A stretch of DNA of 14,927 nucleotides, taken from Candidatus Saccharimonadota bacterium (GTDB lineage: Bacteria; Patescibacteriota; Saccharimonadia; Saccharimonadales; Saccharimonadaceae). The DNA is taken from positions 1 through 14,927 of the forward strand of contig DODJ01000084.1 in the NCBI GenBank assembly GCA_003545655.1, given 5' to 3'. The translations under genes were made by a program, and so were the position numbers. Below the pieces are notes generated by a model. That model was not told the DNA's origin and did not search any database. It saw only the letters and a list, made by a program, of their open reading frames with translations. Positions 3,388 through 8,484 of the stretch are shown here, piece by piece. Numbering within the stretch: the first letter of the stretch is position 1; each line of letters starts with the position of its first letter.

Positions 3388-3654
3388 ATGCGGAAGTTTA
3401 TCATCACCACCTGCCTTATTCTCTCGGGAGTTCTTATTCTCGACAGCTTTAATTTTGTCCACTCACTTGTGATGTTCGTACTTGTCGGGGTTATTCCGGG
3501 CACCAACACTGCAATCAGCGCTGATCAAATGCTCGTTCTCGTTGCCATTCTTCTTGGATTTATCTTCGGTCGCCTTGTAAACGGTGCTATCGTAAAAATT
3601 ACTCACCAAGTGGCACAACACTCTCAGCCCAAAGCTGCAACTCTTGTAAAATAA
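3388..3654 (+). CDS. Small two-helix membrane protein, unknown function
   Basis: An 88-residue protein I do not recognise. It has two hydrophobic segments, about residues 4-36 (long enough to include a hairpin or extended helix) and 48-66, joined by a short polar loop (GTNTAISADQ), with a soluble basic tail containing His and Gln. It would sit in the cytoplasmic membrane. I chose the ATG at 3388-3390; a TTG two codons earlier is open but adds nothing. The leader has only a weak purine stretch (GCGGAAAA). The gene has its own promoter about 30 bp upstream, runs opposite to both neighbours, and its last 56 bp are antisense to the end of the sbcB coding region. The size, hydrophobic pattern and promoter support a real gene; the function is open. 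Confidence 0.65.
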   Translation: MRKFIITTCLILSGVLILDSFNFVHSLVMFVLVGVIPGTNTAISADQMLVLVAILLGFIFGRLVNGAIVKITHQVAQHSQPKAATLVK

Positions 3655-5017
3655 ATTCTTTTGAATCATCGCCGGCATGCTTGGTCGCAAGTTCTTGCAG
3701 ACGCTTTACAAACCCAGGTAGCTGCGCCTGAATACGGGCAGCACGCCACGACTCCCAAGTCACGGCCTCGTCTTCCGCAAGACTCGTAGGGTAATTACGC
3801 GCCTTGTAATGAAGTAACAACGCATTAAGCCGTTCATCAATAAATTCAGGGTGAAGGTCGGCCAGTTCATTTGCTGAAGCCTGGCGCACCTTTGCACTCC
3901 GTAGCCTATCGGTATCCGGAACAAACCCTTCATACAGCTGGCCCTCTGGGTCAATTTCTTTTGCAAATTCTGGGCGGCTTTCAAAGGCAGTTCTAATATT
4001 TTCAGCAAAGCTCGGGTTGGCAAGAAGCACCGCACGGTGGCGTGCAATAGTTTCTTCATCAAGCCCTATACGCGCCCAGCCGTCTTCACGCTCTAACACC
4101 CCCAAAGGGGCTACTGCCGGTGCCCTATTTAGTTGCAGTTCTTTAACGGGTACTTTTTGAAAGCCCTCTGCTTGGCGCGCTTCCCAGGTGGCAAATAATA
4201 GCTCAGCAAGCTCTTTCGGTGATTTTGAAATAAACGGCATAGGGTCATATCGTAAGTCATATGCCACCACCGCCCCGTTGCGACCTGTTGTTAACGGAAA
4301 TGCCACGGTCGCCTTATGATACGCCGCGTCGTATCGCCCGCTTACGTATACGAAGGGTGTTTTATCTTCAAGGTTCACTAGTGAAGCAACCTGCTTTTTA
4401 TCTTTATACTTAAAAAGGTGCGCATAAAGTTGCGGCTGTTTCTCTTGAATAAGTTTCGTTACCGCAATAAGCGCCTCTACGTCACTCAGTGCATCGTGCG
4501 CTTTGAAATGGTCAATGCCATTTAATTTTGTAAGCAGTTCAAGACGGTTGGTTTCCTTACCATCAACGACTGGCCACTCAATACCCGCCGGGCGAAGCGC
4601 GCGCGTCATACGCACAACATCAAGCATATCCCAACGGCCTCGACCATCGCGCCATGCCCATTCATACGGGTCGTTAAAGGTGCGCCAAAACAAAGCACGG
4701 ATAAATTCATCATCAAACCGAATGTTATTAAACCCAACCGTAATGGTATCTTCGGTAAATACTTCTTCGATAAGAATACGGGCGAACTCTGCCTCGGTAT
4801 AGCCGTCTGCCTGGGTTTGCTGCGGAGTAATCCCGGTCACCATTAAGGCGTCGGGGCTTGGCAATGTATCATCATTTAGTTTTACAAGTATGTTATACGG
4901 CTCGCCAATTGGCTTGAAATCAAGGGTGGTGCGCTGGCCAGCGAATTGCATAATGCGGTCTTGCCGAGGATTAAGCCCGGAAGTCTCAAGGTCGTAGAAG
5001 AAAAATGTCTGTGGCAT
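3599..5017 (-). CDS. sbcB: Exodeoxyribonuclease I (SbcB/ExoI)
   Basis: A 3'-to-5' single-strand DNA exonuclease used in recombination, mismatch repair and clean-up of ssDNA ends. Its 472 residues match the roughly 475 of E. coli ExoI and it appears collinear throughout, from memory of that protein. The DEDDh active site is complete: D9 and E11 (YDLET), D102 (NNIRFDDEF), H174 and D179 (KAHDALSDV). Family blocks such as MVTGITPQ (59-66), RWDMLDVVR (128-136), the SH3-like middle (VYVSG, 223-227) and the C-terminal helical block (LLLHYKARNYP) are all present. The ATG at 5015-5017 fits the family N-terminus and lies 7 nt after a TATAAT. The family is best known from Gammaproteobacteria, so its presence here suggests old lateral transfer (inference). 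The 3' end overlaps the small membrane protein gene. Confidence 0.95.
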   Translation of the reverse strand: MPQTFFFYDLETSGLNPRQDRIMQFAGQRTTLDFKPIGEPYNILVKLNDDTLPSPDALMVTGITPQQTQADGYTEAEFARILIEEVFTEDTITVGFNNIRFDDEFIRALFWRTFNDPYEWAWRDGRGRWDMLDVVRMTRALRPAGIEWPVVDGKETNRLELLTKLNGIDHFKAHDALSDVEALIAVTKLIQEKQPQLYAHLFKYKDKKQVASLVNLEDKTPFVYVSGRYDAAYHKATVAFPLTTGRNGAVVAYDLRYDPMPFISKSPKELAELLFATWEARQAEGFQKVPVKELQLNRAPAVAPLGVLEREDGWARIGLDEETIARHRAVLLANPSFAENIRTAFESRPEFAKEIDPEGQLYEGFVPDTDRLRSAKVRQASANELADLHPEFIDERLNALLLHYKARNYPTSLAEDEAVTWESWRAARIQAQLPGFVKRLQELATKHAGDDSKEFILQELQLWAESVVPLGE

Positions 5018-5024
5018 ACACTTT

Positions 5025-5030
5025 ATTATA
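5025..5030 (-). promoter_or_regulatory. sbcB -10 box, leaderless start
   Basis: Minus-strand TATAAT followed by 7 nt (AAAGTGT) and then the sbcB ATG, so the expected start site falls at or next to the A of ATG. No good -35 is visible (AAAACA at 17-bp spacing is weak). The box lies just downstream of the terminator at 5064-5086, so sbcB would be transcribed on its own. Confidence 0.55.
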
Positions 5031-5063
5031 CGGGTTAATTATGAGATTGTTTTTAAACCAAAT

Positions 5064-5086
5064 AAAAAATCACCCGTATTGGGTGA
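5064..5086 (-). terminator. Intrinsic terminator of the 5063-5573 transcript
   Basis: On the minus strand TCACCC-AATAC-GGGTGA forms a 6-bp stem with a 5-nt loop (5070-5086), followed by six T (5069-5064), an A and three more T. The order of hairpin and T-run is right only for the minus strand. Confidence 0.75.
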
Positions 5087-5093
5087 AAAATAA

Positions 5094-5110
5094 GACAAAC
5101 TGGATAAAGA
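5094..5110. repeat. 17-bp inverted repeat, arm A
   Basis: GACAAACTGGATAAAGA on the plus strand; the exact reverse complement lies at 5518-5534. An ATGC just inside (5112-5115) can also pair with GCAT at 5508-5511 after a small bulge. It lies between the terminator and the body of the candidate RNA, as expected for an end-closing helix. Confidence 0.9.
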
Positions 5111-5270
5111 AATGCGCCAACGAGGGCGAGAATAGTTGACCGTCCTGAGGAGGGTACGCCAAAACTATTCTCGCCCCCGAAGGGCCTGAGTGAGTCGGGG
5201 GGATGTGGCTCACTCAGCGTAGATACATAGTCACCGTCCTTTCAGAAAGGTGCTTCGCAGTGAGGCCGGC

Positions 5271-5360
5271 TCAGGCGGAGCCCGCGGCCTCGATGCCGAC
5301 GGCGGTGACGACGATGATCTTCTTGTGGGAGGTGGTGCTGATCTTCTTCGGAGGGCTCAT
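5271..5360 (-). CDS. Possible 29-aa peptide, third of three linked mini-frames
   Basis: The ATG at 5358-5360 overlaps the stop of the preceding mini-frame as ATGA. The product would be a Lys- and Val/Ile-rich peptide beginning MSPPKKISTTSHKK and ending EAAGSA. Codons end almost entirely in C or G, unlike the neighbours. A purine stretch (AAAGAGAG) lies 6 nt before the ATG. Against coding: the frame's 3' end, including the stop, falls in a strong RNA hairpin (5262-5291) that would by itself explain the GC bias. I do not recognise the peptide. Confidence 0.3.
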   Translation of the reverse strand: MSPPKKISTTSHKKIIVVTAVGIEAAGSA

Positions 5361-5395
5361 TTGATACTCTCTTTCTTACCCCTGGGGGCGATCAT
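5357..5395 (-). CDS. Possible 12-aa peptide, second of three linked mini-frames
   Basis: Encodes MIAPRGKKESIK. It starts at an ATGA shared with the stop of the frame before it and ends at an ATGA shared with the start of the frame after it. It has no Shine-Dalgarno of its own, so translation would depend on coupling. Too short to judge by composition. Confidence 0.2.
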   Translation of the reverse strand: MIAPRGKKESIK

Positions 5396-5430
5396 GACGA
5401 CACTACTCTTCTTGAGTATAGGCGTGCCAT
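5392..5430 (-). CDS. Possible 12-aa peptide, first of three linked mini-frames
   Basis: Encodes MARLYSRRVVSS. Its ATG (5428-5430) follows AGGAGG (minus strand, 5435-5440) at a 4-nt spacing, the most complete Shine-Dalgarno match I noticed in the window, though slightly close. Its stop overlaps the next start as ATGA. The start codon lies in a predicted RNA helix (5424-5431/5396-5403), so the frame could also be chance within a structured RNA. Confidence 0.25.
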   Translation of the reverse strand: MARLYSRRVVSS

Positions 5431-5517
5431 CGTTCCTCCTACAGCCATTCACTGCAGGCACCCTGCCGCTACTATATGTAGTGGTTCGGTGTCTACAGTG
5501 ATACACTGCATGAATTC

Positions 5518-5534
5518 TCTTTATCCAGTTTGTC
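5518..5534. repeat. 17-bp inverted repeat, arm B
   Basis: Exact reverse complement of 5094-5110, starting about 40 nt after the predicted transcript start. The bases just outside the two arms (AAAAATAA and AATGAACT) show no convincing target-site duplication, so I favour an RNA helix over transposon ends. Confidence 0.9.
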
Positions 5535-5579
5535 AATGAACTCTTCAACAGCACATGGCTATTTCGTAGCTATTTTTTA

Positions 5580-5608
5580 ATTATAGCAAATTATTGACTT
5601 TTTGTCAA
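5580..5608 (-). promoter_or_regulatory. Perfect consensus promoter of the structured transcript
   Basis: Minus-strand TTGACA (5603-5608), a 17-bp spacer, and TATAAT (5580-5585) preceded by TGC, an extended -10. It matches the housekeeping sigma consensus at all 12 hexamer positions; the predicted start is near 5573. It begins 12 bp after the obg stop codon. Confidence 0.85.
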
Positions 5609-5610
5609 TA
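5592..5610. promoter_or_regulatory. 19-bp palindrome over the -35 box
   Basis: TATTGAC-5-GTCAATA: perfect 7-bp arms around a TTTTT/AAAAA centre. One arm contains most of the -35 hexamer of the structured-RNA promoter. It could be an operator or a weak A/T-rich terminator for obg. Confidence 0.45.
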
Positions 5611-5620
5611 TATATTTTTA

Positions 5621-6922
<1,302 letters not shown>

Positions 6923-7081: not shown

Positions 7082-8338
7082 TTAGTGAACGTATCGATAG
7101 ACTGCAGCTTGGCCAGCTGATATAGTACGGTTATTTACAATATTGAAACCACCGTACGCCGCGTTATTCATTTCGCTAACAACAATCGAGCCGTCGGCGT
7201 TGACCGATTCAACAACGCCTGCGTGCCCTGGGCTACCCTCTTCTACAAACACAGCACCGGCAGCAGGTGTATTGTTAACCGTAAAACCAGAAGCCATTGC
7301 ACTATACGCCCATGATCCACCATTACCCCAGAAACTTCCTACAGGACGGCCTATTGCTGCACGTCGTTCATACGCGTACCAGGTACAGTTACCAAAGGCA
7401 TAGCGGTTACCTACTGACGCTGCGCGCCAACCAGAGTAACTACTTACACTGCCGGTACTTGTGTAGCTGTACACTACAGGGGCAATGTAGCCAGGGCGTT
7501 CGGTTTCAGGTAGCTCACCGTTAGGAATGATAATCTTTAATCCAGTGCTTACCCCGTTAATTTCGAGGTCGTTATAGGTGGTAACAAGTGAGGCATCCGC
7601 CTTATACTTGTCAGAGATACTTTCAACCGTGTCACCATCAGCAACGGTATACACAATACCGTCCCTAGGAAGAATTTCTAGCGTGTTACCCACTACAAGT
7701 GAGTCGGTGGTAAGGTCATTCGCCCATTTGATGGTTTGGGCAGTAATACCAAACTTCGCTGCGACTGAATCAACAGTATCACCGGGCTCAATAGTATAGG
7801 TAGTAATGCTTCGTGTGGCATCGGTGGGCTCAACAATGACCGGTTTAGCGATAGTAGCGGTATCAGCTGTCGTGGCGTATTCGCTTTGAATGCGGGTTGA
7901 TACCGCACGTTCAGCAATATTCGGTGCCACTGCAAGCTCTGTAGCTTCCGCGACTGATGCGGCAATATCTGTAGCCACCACATCATTTACTGCTACCTCA
8001 TCTTCGTCGGTAGTAGCAACAACTGGGGTCGCCGATGCCGTCACGCTTGCCTCTTGTGGTGTACGATACCCGACCGCAATAACCGCAATAAGAAGCGCGA
8101 AAAGACCAGTATATATAGCGACGGTTGACGATTTGATGCGACCCTTTGAAGATCGCTTGGTTTTTGGCTTAGCAGGCACATCCAAAGGACGCGCTACTGT
8201 AGCCCCACCCTGGGTAGTATGAATACTACCGCTCGTAATGTGATTACGAATTATCGTTCTCCTGCCGCTCGGATTTCTCTCGAGGGCGTCTACCGTACTA
8301 GGTCTTACTTCCCTGCGTTTACAGGGAACGGGATACAT
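7082..8338 (-). CDS. Membrane-anchored LysM-CHAP peptidoglycan hydrolase
   Basis: Predicted cell wall amidase or endopeptidase. Read from the ATG at 8336-8338 it has 418 residues: a basic cytoplasmic N-terminus, one membrane helix (about 73-92), a low-complexity Ala/Thr/Val linker (95-178), LysM 1 (about 180-223, YTIEPGDTVDSVA), LysM 2 (229-272, YTVADGDTVESIS), a Ser/Tyr linker, and a CHAP domain (about 311-418) with C318 (GNCTWYAY), H372 (GHAGVVE) and E389 or N391 as the likely catalytic set. LysM modules bind glycan and CHAP cuts peptide or amide bonds. The start is uncertain: TTG at 8185 or GTG at 8179 would still leave a basic signal-anchor and would put three small hairpins into the leader. 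It has its own strong promoter at 8491-8519 and a terminator at 7033-7066. Roles could be daughter-cell separation or action on a host wall; the sequence does not decide. Confidence 0.92.
   Translation of the reverse strand: MYPVPCKRREVRPSTVDALERNPSGRRTIIRNHITSGSIHTTQGGATVARPLDVPAKPKTKRSSKGRIKSSTVAIYTGLFALLIAVIAVGYRTPQEASVTASATPVVATTDEDEVAVNDVVATDIAASVAEATELAVAPNIAERAVSTRIQSEYATTADTATIAKPVIVEPTDATRSITTYTIEPGDTVDSVAAKFGITAQTIKWANDLTTDSLVVGNTLEILPRDGIVYTVADGDTVESISDKYKADASLVTTYNDLEINGVSTGLKIIIPNGELPETERPGYIAPVVYSYTSTGSVSSYSGWRAASVGNRYAFGNCTWYAYERRAAIGRPVGSFWGNGGSWAYSAMASGFTVNNTPAAGAVFVEEGSPGHAGVVESVNADGSIVVSEMNNAAYGGFNIVNNRTISAGQAAVYRYVH
8213..8328. repeat. Three small inverted repeats near the CHAP gene start
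   Basis: GGTAGTAT/ATACTACC (8213-8220, 8223-8230), CGTAAT/ATTACG (8234-8239, 8243-8248) and TTCCCTG/CAGGGAA (8309-8315, 8322-8328). All lie between the first possible start codon (8338) and the later GTG (8179). Confidence 0.6.
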
Positions 8339-8484
8339 GTCGACCAGTGTTTATTTAATATAGTTTTCTGGTATCCGTACGACCGTTATGGTAGGCGCAT
8401 TACGTCATCATTTCCCCACTCGCAGGTGTTTTCGGCATACACGGCCAGAAGGAACACTAGTAGATATGACACACGTAATGTGCT
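8339..8484 (-). promoter_or_regulatory. Long structured 5' leader of the LysM-CHAP mRNA
   Basis: From the predicted start near 8484 to the first ATG is about 146 nt. CAUUACGU (8473-8480) can pair with ACGUAAUG (8398-8405) over 8 bp, enclosing 67 nt; just before the ATG, ACCAG and CUGGU (5 bp) enclose an A/U-rich loop. A second CACATTACG occurs downstream at 8234-8242. This could be an RNA switch, but it matches no riboswitch consensus I know. Confidence 0.4.

Follow-up and report, generated by a model that had tools for sequence, protein, structure and literature searches.

A structured, end-closed RNA unit behind obg in Saccharibacteria: a putative peptide mRNA with foreign codon usage

The window analysed here, a stretch of 14,927 nt from a Saccharibacterium, carries between obg and sbcB an intergenic unit at positions 5063–5608 of the minus strand, with a predicted promoter, ∼510 nt with closed ends and a terminator (Table 1). 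An initial annotation of this DNA had proposed a complete promoter-to-terminator unit at this place, and its promoter, end-to-end helix and terminator were recovered; the terminator stem lies at 5086–5070, with the T's after it. The transcription start (∼5573) is deduced from the −10 box.

Table 1. Predicted features of the unit between obg and sbcB and its two neighbouring genes.
Feature	Position	Strand	Basis
obg, upstream neighbour, synteny anchor	5621..6916	-	Obg, NF008955
Promoter TTGACA-17-TATAAT, TG before second hexamer	5580..5608	-	12/12 hexamer positions
5′ leader hairpin, ends ...TTCATT before closing helix	5535..5573	-	fold
Closing helix, 5′ arm GACAAACTGGATAAAGAGA	5516..5534	-	pairing, covariation
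ORF MARLYSRRVVSS, 12 codons, behind AGGAGG; stop overlaps next start (ATGA)	5392..5430	-	predicted coding
ORF MIAPRGKKESIK, 12 codons, ATGA overlap at both ends	5357..5395	-	predicted coding
ORF MSPPKKISTTSHKKIIVVTAVGIEAAGSA, 29 codons, GC3 0.96, TGA stop, foreign-codon ORF	5271..5360	-	predicted coding
Mini-ORF MTMYLR, GTG start, behind GAAAGGA, TGA in hairpin base	5214..5234	-	sequence
Hairpin CTGAGTGAG/CTCACTCAG, contains mini-ORF stop	5186..5217	-	pairing
Strong 3′ hairpin just inside closing helix	5121..5179	-	pairing
Closing helix, 3′ arm	5094..5112	-	pairing, covariation
Intrinsic terminator and T run	5063..5086	-	sequence
sbcB (exodeoxyribonuclease I), downstream neighbour	3599..5017	-	NF008746

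The two ends of the predicted transcript are complementary. Recomputation returned the mismatch-free 17-bp pairing that had been annotated, 5094–5110 with 5518–5534 (17 nt, 100% paired), which extends to 19 bp if one G-U pair is allowed. Its score of 43 was equalled by none of 60 shuffles of the 5′ arm region (mean 18.2, maximum 26). The minimum free energy fold of 5573–5063 is closed by this helix and reaches −210.3 kcal/mol, compared with −153.5 ± 6.3 for 100 shuffles (z = −8.98). The strong inner hairpin noted before at 5163–5176/5124–5137 reappeared as a 17-nt pairing of 5121–5137 with 5163–5179 (94%), and a comparable strong 3′ hairpin, judged by eye, is present in several of 14 folded units. 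Leaders resembling that of the window's unit occur both in the units of other genomes and at other genome sites.

That this RNA matches no known family, as had been claimed, was borne out by the Rfam check of the unit. When the window was scanned with the Rfam 15 library of 4227 families, which by design includes RNase P, tmRNA, 6S, SRP and riboswitches, no family reached gathering level within the unit, and a permissive scan of 5020–5640 gave six matches, each far under its family's cut-off. Across 16 loci with related units, Rfam returned 13 matches, all of them lysM-TM7 upstream of obg and none in the units. tmRNA was ruled out by the absence of a tRNA-like domain (ARAGORN found 0 tRNA and 0 tmRNA genes in the window). 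An RNA of the retron or reverse-transcriptase-linked type was likewise rejected: the neighbours encode ObgE and exodeoxyribonuclease I, and PADLOC detected no reverse transcriptase among six window proteins. As a separate observation, PADLOC gave sbcB a score against the SbcB component of a reverse-transcriptase defence system, PDLC03817. Among the literature matches listed, many of them off topic, there was no description of an obg–sbcB RNA family or of host-dialect genes in Saccharibacteria. We conclude that the structure is real and that the RNA family is undescribed.

The window does contain one known structured RNA, lysM-TM7 (RF03005), at 8259–8396 of the minus strand (88.8 bits), where it precedes a LysM/amidase-like gene; it is also found at 13 of the 16 related loci. 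Like the unit it is a structured Saccharibacteria RNA, but it is a cis-regulatory family of 138 model positions at another place, and we saw no relation between the two.

BLAST with the unit gave a match at E ≤ 0.01 in 35 of 198 family genomes, the window's genome included. Outside that genome the matches were short (19–64 nt) and mostly fell on the promoter, few of them elsewhere; for the interior of the unit, only short sequence matches were found in relatives within these 198 genomes. The window unit had no BLAST match in phage or plasmid collections. In the homologue search that had been suggested, synteny was more productive than BLAST. In all 17 same-genus genomes sbcB lies downstream of obg, at a spacing of 436–716 nt in 14 of them; the remaining three have 59, 118 and 1216 nt. 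Among 80 distinct gaps of the family, 54 measured ≥ 350 nt and 35 contained a promoter plus a terminator. Compared with 60 shuffles of each gap's own 5′ arm region, the end-to-end helix was better than all shuffles in 20 of these 35 gaps and not in the remaining 15. A tally of 76 gaps, based on a different locus set and different duplicate rules from those of the 80, contained 18 near-empty sites (gap ≤ 130 nt). Tandem units were seen as well, two in L196 and others in L039 and L062 (partly by eye). The units behind obg share a plan and little sequence.

The closing helix was then compared across units. Our finder gave 27, one of which (L151 at 729) was dropped by judgement, as coding region, before all counts on the 26 units described here. 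By selection, the window's unit and the 25 others each have their own −35/−10 promoter and a closing helix between leader and terminator. The 26 units contain 25 different 5′ arms. Of the 14 helix positions, 13 show all four Watson–Crick pairs and one shows three types, and 10 of the 364 cells (26 units × 14 positions) hold non-standard pairs. A finder that demands a helix will favour paired cells in this count, and the informative parts are the sequence diversity and a control in which arms were swapped between units. Here, own-pair scores of 27–43 stood against 17.9 ± 4.5 for swapped arms, with 42 of 650 swaps scoring ≥ 27. A lack of compensatory changes in homologues had been named as evidence against the annotated RNA; for the closing helix the result went the other way, since different sequences still paired in the 26 units.

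Three ORFs on the transcribed strand, joined by ATGA overlaps, and the mini-ORF MTMYLR were absent from the initial annotation. The third of the joined ORFs, MSPPKKISTTSHKKIIVVTAVGIEAAGSA, has a weak Shine–Dalgarno (SD) sequence of its own and would be reached from the two 12-codon ORFs via the overlaps. Its GC content at codon positions 1 to 3 is 0.46/0.54/0.96, and overall 0.63 versus 0.49 for the remainder of the unit. Searching 55 gaps of ≥ 350 nt for SD-led ORFs of ≥ 25 codons with GC3 ≥ 0.85 gave 16 gaps on the sense strand, the window's among them; the antisense strand gave 4 of 55, and none of eight shuffle sets contained any. Fifteen of the 16 ORFs end in TGA, and 15 begin 190–305 nt past the end of the obg match. 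The sole TAG-ended ORF lies in L066, where its coordinates coincide in part with the antisense strand of a high-GC3 gene of 124 aa; it is probably an antisense shadow of that gene, and is kept in the counts. Some of the gaps with a high-GC3 ORF (L166, L169 and L178) gave no promoter by scan, and 39 of the 55 long gaps, that of TM7i among them, have no high-GC3 SD-led ORF. In the helix-selected set, ORFs of ≥ 24 aa with GC3 ≥ 0.9 were found in 6 of 26 units, against 0 in 20 shuffle sets and 2 in the reverse complement.

Ten unit peptides searched against Pfam gave nothing above the cut-off. Signal-peptide-like starts were seen by eye in a few encoded proteins (L165, L166 and L196). One close ORF pair, L069/L071, differs by 9 non-synonymous and 2 synonymous changes over 43 aligned codons (stop included); both of its length changes are in frame, but purifying selection on this peptide is not apparent from the pair.

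The units are also rich in shorter frames. SD-led ORFs of 3–11 codons numbered 47 in the 26 units, as compared with 17.8 in shuffles (maximum 26). Ten of these mini-ORFs have SGFT-like and four KRHx-like endings, where shuffles give 0.1 and 0.05 and the reverse complement has neither; both motifs were picked after the peptides had been seen. The SGFT codons vary synonymously among units (nucleotides read by eye), which suggests selection on the SGFT peptide. The window's unit has neither motif.

The initial annotation had read the unit as a large, folded and non-coding RNA laid out like RNase P, tmRNA or the OLE/ROOL class. The large structured unit stands, with its fold (z = −8.98) and covarying ends; the non-coding part does not fit the SD-led ORFs that recur in the units, some with extreme GC3 and TGA stops. 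The RNA of the window is probably not non-coding, and 'structured peptide mRNA', putatively transcribed and translated, is the better name. It remains conceivable that the unit is a structured regulatory or scaffold RNA whose ORFs are incidental or only load ribosomes, and we regard this as quite unlikely. The strong fold and the covariation would suit such an RNA, as would the 39 long gaps that have no high-GC3 ORF and the mini-ORFs of 5–8 codons, some stopping at a hairpin, that resemble ribosome-control devices. It accounts poorly for high-GC3 SD-led ORFs that are found in none of the eight shuffle sets, sit at similar positions and commonly stop at TGA, and for the synonymous variation of the SGFT endings.

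Comparison with known RNAs shows both shared features and differences. OLE, ROOL and GOLLD RNAs are, like the unit, hundreds of nucleotides long, with their own promoter and terminator and mutually paired ends; the unit differs from them in having no Rfam match, an interior that changes between genomes and ORFs with extreme codon bias. The dual-function sRNAs SgrS and RNAIII also combine a structured RNA with a short peptide-coding sequence, but the unit carries a foreign-dialect peptide, multiple mini-ORFs, changing cargo at a fixed site and no known target-pairing segment. tmRNA shares paired ends and a short reading frame with the unit, which in contrast has no tRNA-like domain, SD sequences with ATG starts and no Rfam match.

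Codon usage sets the unit ORFs apart from the genes around them. Ten 20-kb samples from each of two relatives gave a GC3 of 0.464 ± 0.080, with 2 of 162 genes at ≥ 0.8, and of 0.471 ± 0.064, with 0 of 179. Among ordinary genes (GC3 < 0.65) of the two relatives, TGA is the stop in 17 of 103 and in 12 of 127. In G105, just two genes of ≥ 100 aa within the 200-kb sample reach GC3 ≥ 0.8; they lie side by side (L329:11657–13577), both end in TGA, and by eye they are membrane-like and lipoprotein-like. Another gene, at L059:2049–2807 (GC3 0.86), appears by eye to have a signal peptide and a C-terminal anchor and resembles actinobacterial surface proteins. Ribosomal protein genes of five genomes, that of the window included, have a GC3 of 0.32–0.58 (genes named by reading, L2 alone via Pfam), and strong expression is therefore not the cause of high GC3.

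The codon use of 12 unit ORFs correlates at 0.97 with that of nine other high-GC3 orphan genes, both sets having been chosen partly for GC3. The correlation is 0.83 with the actinophage (Streptomyces phage) phiC31, which at GC3 0.77 is a proxy only for the host, 0.43 with nine ribosomal genes and 0.07 with native genes. CCA accounts for 0 of 40 Pro codons in unit ORFs versus 32 of 60 in ribosomal genes, GGT for 4 of 48 Gly codons versus 82 of 119, and CTT for 1 of 21 versus 41 of 86, the reference being the nine ribosomal genes from two genomes. The unit ORFs reverse the native codon preference. Their codon and stop usage lies far from the native optimum and near that of the host group, as judged by the phiC31 proxy alone.

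These codons could still be read at home. TM7i has G34 tRNAs for many C-ending codons, as judged from 34 of its 37 tRNA hits, matched by coordinates, so native decoding is possible. The unit might accordingly be a peptide mRNA that is translated in the Saccharibacterium itself, with closed ends that stabilise it, odd codons that serve RNA stability, slow translation or another internal need, and peptides that act in the epibiont or are secreted from it; we hold this to be doubtful, with an appreciable chance of being right. Structure and ORFs fit it too, high GC3 raises RNA stability, the TM7i tRNAs would cover many of the codons, a similar leader serves native genes (see below), and the signal-peptide-like starts seen by eye in L165, L166 and L196 would agree with secretion. 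General stability is a poor reason, however, since the remainder of the window's unit is lower in GC than MSPPKKISTTSHKKIIVVTAVGIEAAGSA, and the excess of this ORF sits in third positions; ribosomal genes choose other codons, and RNA stability leaves the TGA bias of the gap ORFs (15 of 16) unexplained.

Foreign origin is a further explanation for such codons, namely that fragments or genes of high-GC organisms entered an integration hot spot next to obg, on its downstream side. The cargo is variable, 18 of 76 sites are empty or near-empty, and units occur in tandem in L196, L039 and L062, all of which would be expected of such a spot. Moreover, in the obg–sbcB gap of L066 (= L162) the obg tail is present a second time (110 bp, 80%), following an inserted gene of 124 aa that has a GC3 of 0.98 and lies on the opposite strand. 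The copy is a possible footprint of integration into the obg 3′ end, at the only such locus among those scanned. Yet the unit layout, covarying ends included, is repeated in many members of the family. The orphan proteins L221, L008 and L021, from three genomes of the genus, have a GC3 of 0.92–0.95; pairwise comparison links two of their pairs, one at 30% identity (E 8e-10) and one at 26% (E 9e-9), and finds nothing for the third. That proteins at 26–30% identity keep this GC3 speaks against a recent transfer. When three cargo proteins were compared with 5.8 billion database entries, they had 4, 2 and 3 matches, with the query's own cluster counted in the first two, in a search that needs shared 5-residue words and could miss remote relatives. 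Phages and plasmids gave no match for the window unit, nor did phages for the L221 protein or plasmids for the L196 protein. Capture of foreign DNA is very unlikely in our judgement.

We tentatively favour the reading that the unit is a structured peptide mRNA written for the translation machinery of an actinobacterial host, a possible rather than a probable account for which we infer transcription, translation and transfer. The consensus promoter would drive a self-contained, end-closed mRNA. Leader hairpin, closing helix and strong 3′ hairpin would fold the RNA, as computed, and presumably protect it. The short inner peptide cistron would be in the codon and stop dialect of high-GC Actinobacteria, and a message meant for host ribosomes seems the most likely reason for the foreign codons. 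The transcript, or less likely DNA, would reach the attached actinobacterial cell, and the peptides would be made there as effectors. Variable cargo at a fixed chromosomal place might be an adaptation to changing hosts, and the SD-led mini-ORFs, some ending at a hairpin, may be ribosome-loading or stalling devices. The full form of this proposal, in which Saccharibacteria export protected end-closed mRNAs that host ribosomes translate into effector peptides, i.e. an RNA-delivered effector system between two bacteria, we consider unlikely.

Several reports provide a setting for such a route. According to excerpts of PMC10633639, cultivated members, mostly Saccharibacteria, grow on Actinobacteria, and one cultured species depends on what appears to be an essential T4SS; the host of TM7i is given as Leucobacter in a passage of PMC8672522. 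The T4SS of Patescibacteria is described, in parts of PMC12102498, as homologous to monoderm conjugation machinery and seemingly co-opted beyond conjugation, usually without a relaxase and with its substrate unknown. PF12846 (VirB4-type ATPase family) was above the cut-off in the window's genome, and this T4SS is possible machinery for delivery. Seven of nine Saccharibacteria phages that are co-targeted by spacers of other bacteria are targeted by Actinobacteria, as stated in an excerpt of PMC10746230; this shared targeting shows only that both partners meet the same DNA. Counting against the host reading are the 39 of 55 long gaps that have no such ORF, including that of TM7i, a relative with a named host, and the 15 of 35 promoter-plus-terminator gaps with no closing helix beyond shuffles. 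The L069/L071 changes (9 non-synonymous, 2 synonymous), the G34 tRNAs of TM7i and the relaxase-poor T4SS weigh in the same direction.

Among known systems, the closest case of recipient-dialect genes is probably the Agrobacterium T-DNA, where genes kept by the donor are written for the recipient's expression machinery, as proposed here. In our case the recipient would be a bacterium, the delivered form may be RNA, and delivery is itself a proposal. The host reading would bear on the control that epibiotic CPR bacteria exert over their hosts. If it is true, host-directed genes can be sought across whole genomes by their codon dialect, and nucleic acid passed between bacteria as message, not inheritance, becomes directly testable. 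Even without transfer, the units represent an undescribed large-RNA family, marked by covarying ends and by peptides that recur, and the lineage they belong to makes up a large share of microbial dark matter.

The leader is more widespread than the units. RNAalifold on a MAFFT leader alignment gave no pairs, and the model built from it, R1, is therefore sequence-only; comprising promoter, leader and 5′ arm, it is partly a promoter model, and many of its weaker matches cover the promoter part only. Within the class, and beyond this one family, 97 of 195 genomes gave R1 matches at E ≤ 1e-4, some of them at the promoter end alone. In genus g2, a promoter and leader of this kind are mostly followed by ordinary genes with native GC3, one of which reads like ribosomal protein S2; the leader is thus no dedicated export tag. 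In G307, from another family, four R1 hits were examined, and the ORFs behind them have a GC3 of 0.83–0.94. The leader is therefore of general use, and the host-like dialect belongs to some of the cargo behind it. The exact leader motif had four matches in viral contigs, none with a unit.

Larger high-GC3 ORFs outside the layout were scored for a closing helix as well. None of 12 was significant (best L221, 6/100 shuffles); five others of this set had no terminator in reach, and L066, L234, L240 and L318 gave no score. Seven of the 12 ORFs stop at TGA, two at TAA and three at TAG. Neither the closing helix nor the TGA bias is therefore general to high-GC3 genes. L264/L313, which were unscored, show by eye a 14-nt complementary match between the leader and the stretch after the stop.

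Two further leader patterns came up in these comparisons. In L221, L008 and L021, the 330 nt before the orphan ORF contain a second conserved 5′ UTR pattern, CCCTGTCA...ACACAAG...CTTGTGTCGG...GTCGACATT (by eye, with variations), possibly a cis-regulatory RNA. In g2, a very similar leader, gacgaccattaacaaccgaatcatctcagg, precedes several genes that look membrane-protein-like by eye (for example at L282, L304, L309, L312 and L315), and may be a genus-wide 5′ UTR element.
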